Virus record (IMG/VR): IMGVR_UViG_3300037488_002251
Location: 1 to 33,085 of that record
Strand: one strand, 5' to 3'
From: a virus
DNA length: 33,085 nucleotides
The notes under the pieces were generated by a model. It saw only the letters and a list, made by a program, of their open reading frames with translations, ran no database searches and was not told where the DNA came from. Positions 3,265 to 25,449 of the stretch are shown one piece after another. The position numbers and the translations under genes were made by a program. Every line of letters begins with the position of its first letter. The stretch's first letter is position 1.

Positions 3265-3862
3265 TTTACCCCAAGAATGGAAAGCAGCTCTTGAGGGGCT
3301 CGCACCAGTAGAGGTGGTCAGGCGAGTCGAGGGGTTGTTAGCCAAAAGCCAGACAGGGCCACTACCAAATGACCGTGAGTTTGGTCCATTTCTTCTTTTT
3401 GCTCTTGGTGACTCTATAGACGAAGTGGCGGCTAAGACGGGAATTCCCGTGGATGTCGTATACTTGACGGCCATTTCGTACAGGTGGATGGAGAAGCGCG
3501 AAGAGCTGGCCCGCAAGGGAAACGTCCAATTGATCATGGCCCTCCAGCGCCAGCTAGTCAACAACCTGTTGGTCGCGACGCAGGCGTCCGTACTCAAGCA
3601 AGTCGGCGAGGTGATGTCCGGCAAGCTTGCACCCGAGAAATGCTCGCTTATCCCGCGCAGTCTCCACGGCCTCAAGGCATTGATGGAAATGGTCTCCGAT
3701 ATCAACAACTTAGTCGCCGCCAACGAGGCGGCCCCCAACAACACAACTGTCATCCACGCCGTCGGGCAGGTGCAGGTGAACCAAGGTGTTTTGCCCCCCG
3801 TCCCCGAAACCACCGAAGAAAAACGCAAGCGGTTTCTCGAGATGGCCGATAAGGAGAGTTGA
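3257..3862 (+). CDS. candidate small terminase subunit
   Basis: This 201-residue protein sits directly upstream of the large terminase gene, and its stop overlaps that start (TGATG). Residues 52-72 (DSIDEVAAKTGIPVDVVYLTA) look like a helix-turn-helix, the usual DNA-recognition element of small terminase subunits, which bind the packaging site and regulate the large subunit. The middle is a long helix region (residues 80-160), as expected for an oligomerising core, and the C-terminus is a Pro-rich linker and a short charged helix. The family is not certain from sequence alone; position is the main argument. ATG 3257 overlaps the end of the nuclease gene. Confidence 0.6.
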   Translation: MSSLPQEWKAALEGLAPVEVVRRVEGLLAKSQTGPLPNDREFGPFLLFALGDSIDEVAAKTGIPVDVVYLTAISYRWMEKREELARKGNVQLIMALQRQLVNNLLVATQASVLKQVGEVMSGKLAPEKCSLIPRSLHGLKALMEMVSDINNLVAANEAAPNNTTVIHAVGQVQVNQGVLPPVPETTEEKRKRFLEMADKES

Positions 3863-5949
3863 TGGTCTCCGACGCGGCCTTCTCGCAAGACGAGCGAATC
3901 CAGTTCTTTTTTGAGCCGTGCAAATCCAAGGAAGAATTGCGTCGGTGGATCAAGCTGTTCCTTCATGTCGAATTGCCAGACGAGGCCGTCGACAAGGAGT
4001 CGACCTCCACGCCGCTCGACTTCGTGTGGACCGTCTACAGCTCGATGATGGACAGGAAGGGCCCGAAGCGGCACGTCGCCGCCTGCGCCCGCAACACCGG
4101 CAAAACCCTGACCGCCTGCGTCATCCGCTTTCTGGGGATGGTCCACTTCCGCCGATCCGGCACACATCTGGCCGCCGACCTCAATCAAGCCGCGTCCGCG
4201 AGCATGTATCTGGAAAAGTTTCTGTTGATTCCAGAACTTACCGCTTACGTCAAGTCTAACAACGCCCGCACCAAGGAACTCCATAATCTGCCGGCCAACT
4301 CGTTCACGGATGTCTCGTACTGCAACGTCCGAATCGTGACCGCCACGATCAAGGGGGTGAACAGCCAGCGCGGGTCGCTCAACACGCGCGACGAGGTCGA
4401 CTTGGTCCCGCAGGAAATTCTGTCGGAGTCGGCGTTCATCGCGGACCCAACCCCCGAGGGCCTCCCGCCTGTCGAGGTCAACCTTTCGTCCAGAAAGTCC
4501 AATTCTGGCCCAATCCAGCGGATGATCGATGAGGCCGAAGCGGGCGACACCTCGATCGTTTTGCACAAGTGGAGCATGGTCGATTGGATGAAGCCGTGCC
4601 CGGCAGAGGAGTATCGCCCCGATCTTGGCCGCATCACCGCGTGGATCAACAACGAGACGCTAGCGACCACTTGGGGGCTCGAGTCGTACAACTGCCTCTC
4701 AGACGCCGAGAAACAGCTCCAGAGGCAGGTTGATGCGTTTCACGGCTGTCGAGCCTGTACCGCATTCATCGCCTGTCAGGCGCGCAGTCAGGCCCGAACC
4801 AGCACGCGCGGTCGTCTGCGGGACGCCCAGTTTGTCGCGCAAGTCCTAAAAGAAGTGGCCGACTCCAGCGCCATCATCGCCCAAGCCCTCAATTGGAAGC
4901 CAGAAAGTTCGGCCGTCGTGTTCAGGGTCTTCAACAGGCGCCGCCATTTCCTCAAGGCCGCCGAGTTCTACCGATGGGTCACGGGCCAGTGGTTTATCCC
5001 GCCCGAGAGCACAGCCGCCGACGTCGAGTCGATCATGTCGGCCGGCGATGACCTCGCCAAACTGTTGCTGACCCCGATAAAGCGCCAAATATACGAGGCC
5101 ATGAGGAAGTGCGGGTGGAAAGTCCACTTCGGAATCGACTGGGGCAGCCATGACCCGGCCGTTTGCGTGGTGGTCGGGTATCACAAGCCGTCCCGTCGGA
5201 TGGCCGTCCTGCATGTCGAGGCCATGACCGGTTACCCGAATGAGGACTGGGCCAAATATGTGGCCGCCAGCGCGTGGATCAATTATCCGGGCGACCTCGT
5301 GTGCCCCGACATGGAAGACCCGAATGGTCCTATTTATTTCGGGAGGTTACACATTCCGTGCCACGACAAGAAGCCCCCCAAGATTGCCCCGGGCGTCTCG
5401 CAGATCAGATCGTTCCTGTGGAACCCGATCACCCAGAAAGAGCACTTCGCAATGCTGGACGACGGCGACATGGGGATGAATCGGTGGTGCGCCGAGTGCA
5501 TGGAGAAATGGACATACAAAAAGACCGTAATTGGCTACGATTACGCCCACTTCGAGGACAACCAATACACCCATCCAATCGATGCGCTCCGCTACGCAGC
5601 GGACCCGTGGATCGAGGATGCGTCAGTGTCGATCCGATCGTTTCAGCCCAAGTCTGAGGCACAATCCGAGGTGGCCGCCGCGTTGGGCGACAAGGAAGAG
5701 CAGGAAAAGCGCAAACAGATAGCCACCTTACAGTCGCAACTGACCGAACACTTCTCCATGGAACACGGCGTCGATGTCCCATTCGGGAAACCGAAACAGC
5801 CGAAGGGCACTGGGTCGCCGGCAGAACAACAGCGGGGCTGGACCCCCCTCACCATTGACCCGAACAGGTTCGTTGCTCCCGAGGTCGATCCCATGGCGGC
5901 AGAGGAGCTGCCGACGGTTCCGAAGGGTCGGATTCGGTTTAGGTTTTGA
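3862..5949 (+). CDS. terL: terminase large subunit (packaging ATPase and nuclease)
   Basis: This 695-residue DNA-packaging motor has an ATPase domain with a Walker A-like ARNTGKT at residues 76-82. The Walker B and catalytic acid are in LNTRDEVDLV (Asp177, Glu178), and an SSRKSNSGP segment that may be the coupling motif follows. The C-terminal RNase H-like nuclease has GIDWG (Asp426), an acidic CPDMEDPN segment near 480, and HPIDALRYA (Asp574). These supply the metal-binding acids that cut the concatemer. Between the domains is an unusual Cys- and Arg-rich stretch (about residues 275-330). The length is within the upper range of large terminases. ATG 3862 is preceded by AAGGAGAG at 3851 and overlaps the previous stop. 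Confidence 0.9.
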   Translation: MVSDAAFSQDERIQFFFEPCKSKEELRRWIKLFLHVELPDEAVDKESTSTPLDFVWTVYSSMMDRKGPKRHVAACARNTGKTLTACVIRFLGMVHFRRSGTHLAADLNQAASASMYLEKFLLIPELTAYVKSNNARTKELHNLPANSFTDVSYCNVRIVTATIKGVNSQRGSLNTRDEVDLVPQEILSESAFIADPTPEGLPPVEVNLSSRKSNSGPIQRMIDEAEAGDTSIVLHKWSMVDWMKPCPAEEYRPDLGRITAWINNETLATTWGLESYNCLSDAEKQLQRQVDAFHGCRACTAFIACQARSQARTSTRGRLRDAQFVAQVLKEVADSSAIIAQALNWKPESSAVVFRVFNRRRHFLKAAEFYRWVTGQWFIPPESTAADVESIMSAGDDLAKLLLTPIKRQIYEAMRKCGWKVHFGIDWGSHDPAVCVVVGYHKPSRRMAVLHVEAMTGYPNEDWAKYVAASAWINYPGDLVCPDMEDPNGPIYFGRLHIPCHDKKPPKIAPGVSQIRSFLWNPITQKEHFAMLDDGDMGMNRWCAECMEKWTYKKTVIGYDYAHFEDNQYTHPIDALRYAADPWIEDASVSIRSFQPKSEAQSEVAAALGDKEEQEKRKQIATLQSQLTEHFSMEHGVDVPFGKPKQPKGTGSPAEQQRGWTPLTIDPNRFVAPEVDPMAAEELPTVPKGRIRFRF

Positions 5950-10911: not shown

Positions 10912-11167
10912 TCTCACGAAAAAGACGTATTTCTATCTGGATCATGCGTATTGGCTGTCGTGCCCGATCCAAACCCTATTGACGTCGAATCAGCTATTTG
11001 TCGCGGTCGTCAACGACATGAAGGAGTGTGACGTGCCGTGGCTGAGATCGCTGAGATCGTTGCTATCCTACATCGAGCCCAAATGTGTGTACATCATCAT
11101 ACACGACACCGACTGGGACTTCCGAGATGTTTTTGATGACTATACCGAAGCAAAGGGCGCGGAATGA
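10886..11167 (+). CDS. small unknown protein
   Basis: This 93-residue protein of unknown function starts at ATG 10886, within the end of the nucleotidase gene, with a strong GGAGGGAG at 10877-10884. It has an aromatic N-terminal half (KKTYFYLDHAYWL), a central helix (SLRSLLSYIEPK) and an acidic C-terminus (HDTDWDFRDVFDDYTEAKG). There is no membrane span or known motif. Its stop overlaps the histidine kinase start (ATGA at 11164), so the two are translationally coupled. That makes it a candidate partner or modulator of the kinase, though nothing in its sequence shows this directly. Confidence 0.65.
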   Translation: MSTAANIYNLTKKTYFYLDHAYWLSCPIQTLLTSNQLFVAVVNDMKECDVPWLRSLRSLLSYIEPKCVYIIIHDTDWDFRDVFDDYTEAKGAE

Positions 11168-12756
11168 CAGACAAAATTGAAGTCGCGTGTTCGTGCGAGT
11201 GCGAGTGCGAGTGCGAGTGCGAGTGCGACGTTTGTGCGGAGAATCGGGCATCTGAGAAAAAGTATCGCCTGCTGTTTAACACGGCCCGCGATGCCATCTT
11301 CGTGGGGGACGCCAAAACCGGGATCATTCTCGATTGTAATCCCGCCGCCGAAAAACTAATGGGGAAGAATAGGGGCGAGATTGTCGGACAACACCAGAGT
11401 TCACTTCACCCCAAGGCCATCTTGATAAACGGGTTAAGCCCGACCTTCCGCGAACATCGGCATGGCGGTCCCAATTTATTGACAGAGGATAAAATCATCA
11501 CGTCCAGCGGGGAGATCAGGGACGTGATGATTAGTGGTAGTGTCGCCGAGTGGGGCGGACGGACAGTCATTCAGGGGATTTTTCGGGACATAACTGAGCA
11601 AAGGCTCGCCGGGGCCAGATTGTTCGAGAGCGAAGAGAGGCACCGAGCCTTATTCCAACTGTCGCGAGATGCGCTCATGGTTCTGTGCCCTCCGTCGTGG
11701 ACGTTCACGGATGCGAATCCCTCCACGGTTGAGATGTTCGGGTCGGCGACAAAGGCGGCTTTTTGTGCTCGGGCTCCATGGGAAATATCGCCCGAGCGCC
11801 AGCCAGATGGCCGCCTATCTGCGGAAAAAGCGAAGGAAATGATTGACATGGCCGTGCTCGTCGGCGTCAGTCATTTTGATTGGATGCACATGAATTTCGC
11901 TGGTCGGCAATTTCCGTGCGTGGTCACTTTGATGAGAATGGAGTCAGCCGGAAAACAATTTTTGCAAGCTAGGGTGAGGGATGTGACCGACCTGAAGAAT
12001 GCCGAGAGGAAGGCCGCCATGGCCCAAACCCAACTCCTCCATTCAGAGAAACTGGCGTCGATCGGGACACTGGCCGCCGGCGTTGCCCACGAGATCAATA
12101 ACCCGCTAACGATCGTCGCCGGCATGAGCGCCATCCTCGACAAACGAATGAAGAAGGTCGTCGCGACCGAGTCGCTGCCGGAGTTGTTGACTTTGCTGGA
12201 CAAACTGCGCGCCGCAGCCGATCGCATCGGAAAGATCGTGAACGGTCTTCGCCAATATGCCCGCCTCGACACTGAGGATATCAGCAAGGTGGACCTGCAC
12301 AAGGCAATCGACGACACCTTGAATCTGATCAGGCCAATTTACAGCAAGGGCGGGCTTTCCATCGAGACCGATTTCGCGAGCGCGGGGGGCGTGATTGACG
12401 GGAACGGCGGGAAGTTACAGCAAGTATTGGTGAATCTCTTATCCAACTCCAAGGACGCGACAGAAGGCCGTGCCGACGCCCTGATCAGGATCGAGACCGC
12501 CGACGAGGGCGAATCCGTTGTGCTGCGTTTTTCCGACAACGGCTCCGGAATAGCCCCACACCATTTGGCCACGATTTTTGATGCGTTCTTCACGACCAAA
12601 GACCCCGGCAAGGGGACTGGGCTCGGGCTGTCCATCTCTCACGCCATCATAGAGTCGTTTGGGGGGACGATCTCGGTCGAGAGCGAGATCGGCAAGGGCA
12701 CCACGTTTATTATCCGGTTGGTCGCGGCCGATGTTGACAAACCCGAAGGGGAGTGA
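11164..12756 (+). CDS. PAS-PAS sensor histidine kinase with Cys-Glu repeat N-terminus
   Basis: This 530-residue protein is apparently a complete soluble sensor kinase. Residues 9-24 are a Cys-X run with eight cysteines. Residues about 30-145 are a PAS domain (LFNTARDAIFVGDAKTG; closing GIFRDITEQR). Residues about 155-275 are a second PAS domain (closing ARVRDVTDLK). The dimerisation helix has the H-box GVAHEINNP with phospho-acceptor His309. The ATPase domain has the N-box NLLSNSKDA (Asn428), DNGSGIAP, FDAFFTTKD and GTGLGLSI. All catalytic motifs are present, so activity is likely. No membrane span and no receiver domain are seen, and no response regulator is encoded nearby, so a host partner would be needed. 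The start overlaps the previous gene (ATGA). Complete kinases are rare in phages. Confidence 0.92.
   Translation: MTDKIEVACSCECECECECECDVCAENRASEKKYRLLFNTARDAIFVGDAKTGIILDCNPAAEKLMGKNRGEIVGQHQSSLHPKAILINGLSPTFREHRHGGPNLLTEDKIITSSGEIRDVMISGSVAEWGGRTVIQGIFRDITEQRLAGARLFESEERHRALFQLSRDALMVLCPPSWTFTDANPSTVEMFGSATKAAFCARAPWEISPERQPDGRLSAEKAKEMIDMAVLVGVSHFDWMHMNFAGRQFPCVVTLMRMESAGKQFLQARVRDVTDLKNAERKAAMAQTQLLHSEKLASIGTLAAGVAHEINNPLTIVAGMSAILDKRMKKVVATESLPELLTLLDKLRAAADRIGKIVNGLRQYARLDTEDISKVDLHKAIDDTLNLIRPIYSKGGLSIETDFASAGGVIDGNGGKLQQVLVNLLSNSKDATEGRADALIRIETADEGESVVLRFSDNGSGIAPHHLATIFDAFFTTKDPGKGTGLGLSISHAIIESFGGTISVESEIGKGTTFIIRLVAADVDKPEGE
11194..11229 (+). repeat. in-frame TGCGAG hexanucleotide repeat
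   Basis: Five perfect TGCGAG units and a sixth TGCGAC run from 11194 to 11229 inside the kinase gene, encoding Cys-Glu five times and then Cys-Asp. Six-base units keep the reading frame when copies are gained or lost, so the repeat number may vary between isolates. Confidence 0.9.
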
Positions 12757-22258: not shown

Positions 22259-22265
22259 GAAATTT

Positions 22266-22340
22266 GCGGCATGGTGAAACGGTATCATGTCGGGGCTCAT
22301 AACCCCGGGTTCCGAGTTCGATTCTCGGTGCCGCTACCAC
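22266..22340 (+). tRNA. tRNA with CAU anticodon (Met-type, initiator-like features)
   Basis: The cloverleaf folds with a six-pair acceptor (TGCGGCA with TGCCGCT, leaving a T1-T72 mismatch), D-stem GTGA/TCAT and anticodon stem CGGGG/CCCCG with loop CTCATAA (anticodon CAT). The T-arm is CCGAG-TTCGATT-CTCGG, and A73 and an encoded CCA complete it. The mismatch at 1-72 and the run of G:C pairs in the anticodon stem are hallmarks of initiator tRNA. The T11:A24 pair is more like elongators. tRNA-Ile2 with a modified CAU is a further possibility. The junction before the anticodon stem has one extra base and the variable loop is four bases. Confidence 0.9.
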
Positions 22341-22471: not shown

Positions 22472-23035
22472 ATGAAGAACAAATTTGGCCCATTTCTCTC
22501 CGAGGTCTTTGTCATCATCCGCGACGCAGACCGCCCAATCACGGCCGGCGAGGTGTTTCAGGTGTATGACAGCAACCATTCCGGCACCACCCGTTCACGC
22601 AACGAGGTCGCCAAGCGCGTCAGTGAGCTGGCTGGCTGCGGCGCGATCGCGTACTGCGGCAAGGAGCCGTGCGCGTTCTCGGGAGAAACGGTTTCGACAT
22701 GGCAGGTGCCCCGTGGTGTGCGCCCAATTCTGTCGGACGTTCCGGCCGAACCCAAGGCGCCGACCTCAAAGACAAACGCTGCCGATTCCGACGATGATGA
22801 TTGTGGCTGCGGTTGCGATTGTGGTCCCCATTGCGGTCCCGGCTGCGATTGTGGGTGCGAGGAAGAGGACGAGGACGAGAGCGCAAAATCCATGTTGGAT
22901 AGCGACGACGTGGCCTTCCTTCGTCAGCTCTGTGCGTCCGCTCGCCTCTTGCGGTCGAATCCGTTGTCCCGCCTCCTGCCGGCCAACCTCAAGGCTCTGG
23001 TCGATCAGGCCGCGACGACGCTCGGTAAGTTCTGA
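22472..23035 (+). CDS. winged-helix-like protein with eight-Cys Cys-X cluster
   Basis: This 187-residue protein starts at ATG 22472 with AAGGGG shortly upstream. Residues 1-80 look like a winged helix (VFVIIRDADRPITAGEVFQV; SRNEVAKRVSELAGCGAI), so DNA binding is likely. A Pro- and Lys-rich linker follows, then Asp repeats and eight cysteines at 111, 113, 115, 117, 121, 125, 127 and 129 with His120, framed by Asp and Glu runs. That is a metal-binding cluster in Cys-X-Cys style, like the histidine kinase N-terminus. The C-terminal 40 residues are helical. It is the first gene after a perfect FliA promoter. A metal- or redox-responsive regulator would fit, but this is inference. Confidence 0.6.
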   Translation: MKNKFGPFLSEVFVIIRDADRPITAGEVFQVYDSNHSGTTRSRNEVAKRVSELAGCGAIAYCGKEPCAFSGETVSTWQVPRGVRPILSDVPAEPKAPTSKTNAADSDDDDCGCGCDCGPHCGPGCDCGCEEEDEDESAKSMLDSDDVAFLRQLCASARLLRSNPLSRLLPANLKALVDQAATTLGKF

Positions 23036-24720: not shown

Positions 24721-24984
24721 ATGAAAGTGCTCGTGAAAGAAGTGGAAGGTCAGGGTCTTTTGTCGCTGATTGGGAAAAATGTGATTCTGTTCTGCATGAA
24801 TTACATTTACTCGGGTACGCTCGTTGGCGTGAACGATACCGACGTGATTCTGGAAGACGCGGGAATCGTGTACGAGACCGGGGAACTCAGCGCCAAATCG
24901 TTCAAGGATTTCCAGCGGTTCGGCGTGGCCGAACACCGCATCCGAACGTCGGCGATCGAGTCCTACGGCGAACGCGCAAAATAA
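24721..24984 (+). CDS. small Sm-like / beta-barrel candidate protein
   Basis: This 87-residue protein has a central beta-sheet pattern: LFCMNYIYSGTLVGV, then TDVILEDAGIVYETG, like the strands of Sm/Hfq or related small barrels, with a C-terminal helix (SAIESYGERAK). The resemblance is in pattern only; no RNA-binding residue can be assigned. AAAGGGG precedes ATG 24721. It is the last gene before the hexanucleotide array, and a weak FliA-like promoter lies upstream. Confidence 0.6.
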   Translation: MKVLVKEVEGQGLLSLIGKNVILFCMNYIYSGTLVGVNDTDVILEDAGIVYETGELSAKSFKDFQRFGVAEHRIRTSAIESYGERAK

Positions 24985-25059
24985 TTGGCGTCGTGGTCGG
25001 GGTCGCGGTCGTGGTCGTTTCAATGAGGTCGCGCCGGGGGCGGGGTCGGGAGATAAGTG

Positions 25060-25188
25060 ATGAGACCATCTAAACAAAAGGTTGGGTCGCGGTTGTGGTC
25101 GGGGTTGGGGTCGGGGGTATGGTTGTGGTCGAGATCGCGGTCGAGATCGCTGTTGGGGTCGCTGTTGTCGGGGGCGTGGTCGGGATAA
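25060..25188 (+). CDS. mini-ORF 1 of the array (MRPSKQK start, Trp/Ser/Arg/Gly-rich)
   Basis: This 42-residue frame starts at ATG 25060 with GGGAG at 25048-25052, seven bases upstream. It begins MRPSKQK and continues as a Ser/Gly/Trp/Arg/Leu repeat tail (WSGLGSG, RSRSRS). The tail is of low complexity and gives no fold. A 16-residue frame at 25023-25073 (starting MRSRRGR) overlaps its start but lacks a ribosome site. Treat as a tentative peptide. Confidence 0.4.
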   Translation: MRPSKQKVGSRLWSGLGSGVWLWSRSRSRSLLGSLLSGAWSG

Positions 25189-25201
25189 CGGGAGGTTGGC
25201 G

Positions 25202-25387
25202 ATGAGGTCGCGTAAGCAAAAGCGTTTTGGGTGGCGGTCGCGATCGCGATCAGGGCTGGAGTCTCGGTCACAGTCGTGGTCGATGCTGGGGTCGTGGTCG
25301 GGGTGGGGATCGAGTTGGGCGTCGAAGTCGTGGCTGTGGTCGTGGTCCGGGACGCGGTCTTGCGCGTGTTCGGGAGGTGCGCGATGA
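25202..25387 (+). CDS. mini-ORF 2 of the array (MRSRKQK start, Ser/Trp/Arg-rich)
   Basis: This 61-residue frame starts at ATG 25202 with GGGAGG at 25190-25195, six bases upstream. It begins MRSRKQK, then RSRSRS and a long Ser-Trp-Gly repeat (GSWSGWGSSWASK, WLWSWSG), ending in CACSGGAR. Its stop overlaps the ATG of mini-ORF 3 (ATGA at 25384), the pattern of translational coupling seen in real operons. It resembles no known family. Confidence 0.45.
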   Translation: MRSRKQKRFGWRSRSRSGLESRSQSWSMLGSWSGWGSSWASKSWLWSWSGTRSCACSGGAR

Positions 25388-25449
25388 GATCTGCTAAGCA
25401 AAAGTTCAGGTTGCGGTCGGGATCGTGGTCGGATACAAACAATTCATGA
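25384..25449 (+). CDS. mini-ORF 3 of the array (MRSAKQK start)
   Basis: This 21-residue frame begins MRSAKQK, then RLRSGSWSD and a short polar end. The start overlaps the stop of mini-ORF 2, and GGGAGG lies seven bases upstream. It keeps the start segment and loses most of the repeat tail. A peptide is possible, but a degenerate repeat copy is an equal alternative. Confidence 0.35.
   Translation: MRSAKQKFRLRSGSWSDTNNS

Follow-up and report, generated by a model that had tools for sequence, protein, structure and literature searches.

Proteins of the Sm/LSm group, such as the archaeal SmAPs and the eukaryotic Sm and LSm proteins (1i8f, 1i5l, Lsm1-7), form rings, and some of them (SmD1, SmD3 and Lsm4) carry disordered tails that are rich in RG. 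A viral Sm fold from metagenomic data is also on record, if PDB 3BY7 is, as we take it to be, an Sm-like protein of putative cyanophage origin; we know of no repeat-peptide partner for it. In bacteria, Hfq combines the Sm fold with a disordered C-terminal tail that tunes RNA handling, as two reports describe (PMC5606850, PMC6561178). In eukaryotic SR proteins, an RRM domain is followed by the RS domain, a disordered basic tail built from repeated Arg-Ser dipeptides. Below we compare with these systems a phage locus that encodes a predicted Sm-like protein and, on separate peptides, low-complexity tails.

The locus lies in a virus record of 33,085 bases, which we call the window (the whole stretch of DNA that was analysed). 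It is a tailed-phage contig with genes for a portal, a Clp-type head maturation protease, a Mu F-like protein, a DNA ligase and a helicase. The 696-aa ORF in the terminase position (3859-5949) had no convincing Pfam or PHROG match, so the phage is distant from described groups. The Rfam search of the window returned only a tRNA, at 22265-22336, and the ORF that adjoins this tRNA gene (22472-23035) contains a Cys/Asp/Gly/Glu-rich stretch, DDDDCGCGCDCGPHCGPGCDCGCEEEDEDE, which possibly binds metal. We also noticed a phage-borne PAS/HisKA/HATPase histidine kinase (11164-12756), with a perfect repeat of six GTGCGA units at its N-terminus (11193-11228, encoding CECECECECE); a Cys-Glu repeat of this kind was found in no other fetched locus.

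In a sequence-only reading of the window, an array of about 465 bases of hexamers had been pointed out. This array was confirmed at positions 24985-25449, where the 6-bp self-match was 0.47, as compared with 0.28 across the whole window, and all the highest-scoring 6-bp self-match windows of the contig fell inside it. Tandem Repeats Finder made no call on the array, its degenerate hexamer copies being too diverged. The three ORFs described in the same reading, with the leaders MRPSKQK, MRSRKQK and MRSAKQK and with GGGAG-type ribosome sites 6-7 bases upstream, proved to be exact. All of them lie on the + strand: peptide A (42 aa, 25060-25188) begins with MRPSKQK, which matches the KQK leaders of relatives, and is preceded by GGGAG at 25048-25052 with a 7-base spacing; peptide B (61 aa, 25202-25387) begins with MRSRKQK and is preceded by GGGAGG at 25190-25195 with a 6-base spacing; peptide C (21 aa, 25384-25449) begins with MRSAKQK and has GGGAGG at 25372-25377 on the same strand, again with a 6-base spacing. 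The leader is followed by a tail of (xS) dipeptides in A and B and by a short tail in C, and the start of C lies within the stop of B in the ATGA overlap that had been noted (25384-25387). The three ORFs use differing frames of the + strand, and 25 of the 26 TCG triplets within them are in frame with the ATG of their own ORF. Two more pieces of the + strand look like broken copies: a leaderless (xS) remnant directly 3ʹ of the stop codon of the upstream gene (24985-25026; LASWSGSRSWSFQ and a stop), and a fourth ATGAG ORF (25023-25073; MRSRRGRGREISDETI and a stop), which is probably a frame-broken remnant copy. The tails and copies of the window were more degenerate than those of most relatives and, given the two broken-looking copies, the window phage may be losing the module.

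The sequence-only reading, the overall interpretation of which was supported in part, overlooked the gene that ends at the base before the array (24721-24984, + strand), which encodes a protein of 87 aa and is the constant partner of the array in relatives. The AlphaFold2 model of this protein, built from 16 relatives, had a pLDDT of 78, and the top 50 structures returned for it by Foldseek were almost all Sm/LSm (best E 9.3e-5). In the VIA comparison with the archaeal SmAP 1i8f, the same model, which represents the subtype that we call class 1, gave a Z of 10.3 and an rmsd of 1.6 over 68 residues. Relatives include a second subtype, class 2 (RTVTM..TGRL...), the model of which had a pLDDT of 91.7 and mostly Sm/LSm proteins as its nearest solved structures, with a weaker E (5e-3). 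The features by which we recognised the Sm fold, an N-terminal helix and a five-stranded bent sheet, were predicted in both subtypes, and on the basis of these models we consider it very probable that the upstream protein has an Sm fold. Pfam returned nothing for the window protein at E<=1 and nothing for its relatives at E<=0.1, and divergent Sm1/Sm2 members can escape the LSM profile. Likewise, profile searches of PDB sequences detected no similarity to any Sm chain, and neither the peptides nor the Sm-like protein had a significant match in Pfam, PHROGs, NCBIfam or PADLOC; in PADLOC there was nothing at E<=0.1, although the module may act in defence or counter-defence without being represented in that library. 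The protein is acidic in 92% of the 150 Sm-like ORFs of the repeat-fetched set (median -4; among the matches listed). By eye, the class 1 proteins lack what we take to be the canonical uridine-contact residues of the Sm motifs and, as they are also acidic, they may not bind RNA on their own. Fusion of the Sm-like protein and a tail within a single ORF was not found.

The association of the two parts was recovered from either side. With the Sm-like protein as the sole bait, 19 close relatives were found in viral contigs, and a wider search of viral contigs gave 189 relatives, of which 80 were kept. Among the 70 non-redundant loci fetched in this way that had at least 150 bases available downstream, 63 had (xS) ORFs within 900 bases downstream; the controls gave 3 upstream and 6 in antisense. 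Four of the seven exceptions were diverged chromosomal versions from Nitrospinota, two (L060 and L092) had repeat ORFs upstream instead of downstream, and one (L019) had none. With the DNA repeat as the sole bait, we obtained at least 207 loci with mixed Trp/Arg/Gly arrays; 33 of the 240 repeat-fetched loci, which contained homogeneous SGSG, SRSR or SWSW runs, were left out as unrelated (among the matches listed). A strict DNA pattern of leader plus repeat retrieved nothing from viral contigs, the pattern being too strict. An iterated profile placed the Sm-like gene just upstream in 124 of the 158 repeat-fetched loci with at least 400 bases upstream (among the matches listed), and at some loci it was not detectable nearby. 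When the neighbours of the repeat-fetched loci were grouped into families, the Sm-like family was found at 132 loci, as against 22 for the next real family, that of a primase/helicase-like protein (both among the matches listed); the second most frequent cluster was a shadow ORF on the antisense strand of the Sm-like gene and array. We are close to certain that the array belongs to a coding two-gene phage module, of which positions 24985-25449, judged from the sequence, are the tail-coding part and not a DNA element. A single peptide gene is the rule; within 4 kb, some loci have 2-4 of them, one has 7 and one has 15. At L059 (4260-7738, on a contig shared with L107) a single Sm-like gene is followed by about 15 tandem MITKRxKWRR-(xS)n genes, the starts and stops of which overlap.

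A DNA-level element, acting in recombination, replication, packaging or quadruplex formation and containing only incidental ORFs, would account for the strong hexamer periodicity and for the G-rich strand of the arrays of TCG and TCT types. The sequence-only reading had listed several functions of this kind: a DNA structural or replication site, a packaging or recombination hotspot, and a quadruplex formed by the G-runs. However, the DNA unit varies by phage (GGTCTN, GGTCGN, GGTCAN, GGTCCN or GGAGCN), with essentially one Ser codon for each phage (TCT, TCG, TCA, AGC or TCC), while the residues stay and W:R:G in the tails remains near 0.29:0.31:0.40. Over the Ser-codon classes these fractions were 0.28-0.30 : 0.23-0.32 : 0.39-0.49, without significant heterogeneity (chi2 4.3, 8 df, P = 0.83), whereas the use of AGG versus CGG for Arg differed between the classes (P = 3e-35); both P values are descriptive, since the loci are related. 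The encoded residues are held while the DNA varies, and this contradicts a DNA-level site or hotspot. The array frame is also tied to the start codon and to the stop codon of the Sm-like gene: of 102 array ORFs, 80 had an ATG in the array frame within 90 nt, as compared with 6 and 14 for the other two frames, and in 98 of 191 loci the first peptide start, counted from where the Sm stop codon ends, stood at -4 (80 loci) or -1 (18 loci), positions that are typical of translational coupling. As for quadruplexes, the canonical motif (G3+, loops 1-7) was absent from the window array and present in 23 of 92 arrays of relatives, so it is not a conserved feature. We consider a DNA-level element extremely improbable.

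A further account is that only the leader matters and that the tail, as a microsatellite that slips without constraint, stays open just because NGG-TCN has no stop codons. Indeed, the xS frame of NGG-TCN is unable to hold stops, the synonymous positions are homogeneous, as expected from recent slippage, and near-identical phages (0-2 substitutions) differ in length by indels of 6, 42, 48, 90 and 102 bp. All of these are multiples of 6, which indicates that the tail length is labile and the frame is kept. However, W:R:G is equal in the five Ser-codon classes despite different Arg codons, and AGC arrays are not derivable from TCN arrays by slippage. Neutral slippage would lead to runs, whereas successive x residues were nearly independent and the dispersion of the Trp fraction was below binomial (0.73); the tails thus behave as random copolymers of fixed composition. 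Finally, the synonymous sites are less diverse than the nonsynonymous ones: within arrays, the diversity was 1.46 bits at the first base of the x codon, where changes are nonsynonymous (TGG for Trp, AGG/CGG for Arg, GGG for Gly), 0.22 bits at its third base and 0.14 bits at the synonymous third base of Ser. Of 487 Arg codons 473 were AGG or CGG, and of 745 Gly codons 689 were GGG, both far over background use. That only the leader matters is unlikely in our opinion.

The roughly tenfold excess of nonsynonymous first-base diversity over synonymous diversity could also mean that the diversity of the tails is itself the function, with changing peptides that, for example, escape a tail-recognising host defence or match changing targets. 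The presence of up to 15 tandem paralogues and the indels between near-identical phages would agree with this. We nevertheless regard it as quite unlikely, as the composition is fixed and does not drift, and the variation is not adenine-specific, unlike that of a diversity-generating retroelement. Such a retroelement target was considered separately and rejected: the Ser-codon adenine is invariant in TCA and AGC arrays, while the first x base varies. The phase-variable basic peptides suggested in the sequence-only reading fared differently in their two parts. All 85 peptides scored were basic (median +9, range +2 to +18; median length 61 aa), but a phase-variable simple-sequence contingency locus was rejected, because all the indels seen were multiples of 6 and kept the frame. 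Taken over the relatives, these comparisons show, at the level of codons and residues, that the tails are basic, serine-alternating and selected at the protein level for their composition.

The division into a start segment that is conserved and a tail that varies, which had been proposed for the window, was strongly supported when relatives were checked. Leaders were basic in 82 of 100 cases at class 1 Sm-like loci (KQKYRS and TKRNKFRS types), whereas at class 2 loci 63 of 68 were not basic, with MNxAILRAGYD as the common type. That the leader type tracks the Sm subtype fits docking of the leader on the Sm-like protein; plain co-inheritance could also lead to this matching. We consider a physical complex between the Sm-like protein and the leader reasonably probable.

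Matches of the Sm-like gene in MAGs came from Elusimicrobia, Nitrospinaceae/Nitrospinota and Patescibacteria. Those from Elusimicrobia and Patescibacteria may be binned phage contigs; the class 1 profile had one match only in 248 genomes of the phylum of the Elusimicrobia MAG, and the class 2 Sm profile had none in 287 Patescibacteria genomes, in a search run without a positive control. On the contig from the Patescibacteria MAG (L104), about six array copies and a tRNA-like sequence were observed just after the Sm-like gene, and this contig could belong to a phage of Patescibacteria. At four Nitrospinaceae/Nitrospinota loci (L101-L103 and L105) the Sm-like gene stands in chromosome-like contexts, two further genomes of this family contain the Sm-like gene with the peptide as a pair, and the gene was present in 6 of 46 genomes of the family. 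Six Nitrospinota homologues (L347 and L349-L353, overlapping L101-L103 and L105) encode a non-repetitive peptide of 50-52 aa, e.g. MKQRNRFRLRNSVMSASGRKSWANSWSGPFTMRYWRFSWSGSRSHSLSWAG, the start of which overlaps the Sm stop (ATGA/GTGA). Over all 15 pairs dN was 0.11-0.43, while dS was saturated in two pairs and 0.78-2.7 in those for which it is defined; dN/dS is thus well under 1, which shows, within the limits of a sequence comparison, that the homologues are coding. This again argues against a DNA-level element with incidental ORFs, and the conservation of the chromosomal version against diversity as the function of the tails. By these comparisons, the Nitrospinota pair is a domesticated, non-repetitive chromosomal version of the phage module. 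By eye, its neighbours are an HTH-type regulator and Mrp-like and gyrA-like genes.

The explanation that we consider best, to which as a whole we give a probability of about 0.5 on the present sequences and models, is as follows. As the sequence comparison shows, an acidic protein with a predicted Sm fold is followed by 1 to about 15 paralogous genes, usually with overlapping stop and start codons, each encoding a short leader and a Ser-alternating tail in which Trp, Arg and Gly keep almost the same proportions in an almost random order, and which shrinks and grows by 6-bp units. By analogy with Sm proteins, the Sm-like protein would form a ring, on which the leader, of a type matched to the Sm subtype, would dock. 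Through their disordered, basic tails, in which Trp and Arg would serve as 'stickers' between Gly and Ser 'spacers', the peptides would bind nucleic acid multivalently (most likely RNA) or form a condensate early in infection. This timing is probable because the neighbours include, by eye, primase/helicase-like, polymerase-like and nucleotide-metabolism-like genes. With selection on composition rather than on order, slippage may alter the length freely while Trp:Arg:Gly is held. A role of the tails in nucleic-acid binding or in a condensate is an uncertain part of this proposal, slightly less likely than not. More tentative is the complete scenario, in which a virus Sm-like ring would recruit, via matched leaders, near-random Trp/Arg/Gly-Ser copolymers, selected for composition, into a condensate that organises RNA or DNA, and the pair would later have been taken over by Nitrospinota.

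Alternatively, the products may be W/R-rich membrane-active or host-takeover peptides, similar to Trp/Arg antimicrobial ones, with the acidic Sm-like protein as their carrier or neutraliser. This would be consistent with their richness in Trp and Arg and net charge of +2 to +18, with an acidic partner that is encoded first and translationally coupled, and with the multiple copies of the peptide genes. However, owing to Ser at every other position and to about 40% Gly, the tails are hydrophilic, unlike amphipathic helices, and the genes stand among replication-type and not lysis genes. The slowly evolving chromosomal version in Nitrospinota and the lack of a PADLOC match also speak against toxic peptides, which we regard as an unlikely explanation.

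Among 50,697 phage records, two encoded a relative of the Sm-like protein, and Manatee Spring was the source of both; in MW202825, one of the two, the Sm-like gene falls into a gap of the annotation, with a repeat ORF after it. Environmental phage contigs with the gene pair number at least a few hundred, but deposited phage genomes almost lack it, and one likely reason why it was overlooked by databases is that its second part resembles a meaningless DNA repeat. A search of the open-access literature on phage Sm-like proteins, on SR/RS or dipeptide repeats and on tandem small proteins returned nothing of this kind, so the earlier statement that no element of such design has been described holds for the databases and open papers searched.

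In comparison with the known systems, the phage module resembles the Sm/LSm rings in the predicted fold of its upstream protein and in that an Sm domain goes together with a low-complexity segment rich in Arg and Gly. However, the phage protein is acidic and without a Pfam LSM match at E<=1, and its low-complexity segment is placed on separate multi-copy peptides, in which it alternates with Ser and includes Trp. Hfq has its tail in the same chain, acidic at the tip, whereas in the phage module the acidic part is the Sm-like protein, and the tails, on chains of their own, are basic. The likeness to SR proteins consists in the Arg-Ser dipeptides of a basic disordered tail, but the phage peptides have leaders of about 5-20 residues and no RRM, and membership in the SR proteins, which have an RRM and then an RS domain, was rejected on this ground. 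They are also short (20-90 aa) and occur in tandem copies, and their x residues are Trp, Arg and Gly at about 0.3/0.3/0.4, so that Trp and Gly are as frequent as Arg. Each half of the module therefore has known analogues, the Sm/LSm fold on one side and the RS/RGG low-complexity tails on the other; we know of no system in which multi-copy Trp/Arg/Gly-Ser peptides accompany a separate Sm-like protein. Should the Sm-plus-tail reading be true, the tails would lend themselves to the study of disordered proteins of the 'sticker and spacer' kind as a natural test case, in which composition and not order is selected, with Trp:Arg:Gly held at about 0.3:0.3:0.4 despite variable codons, order and length, and phages would have evolved a split counterpart of the eukaryotic Sm/RGG and SR proteins.
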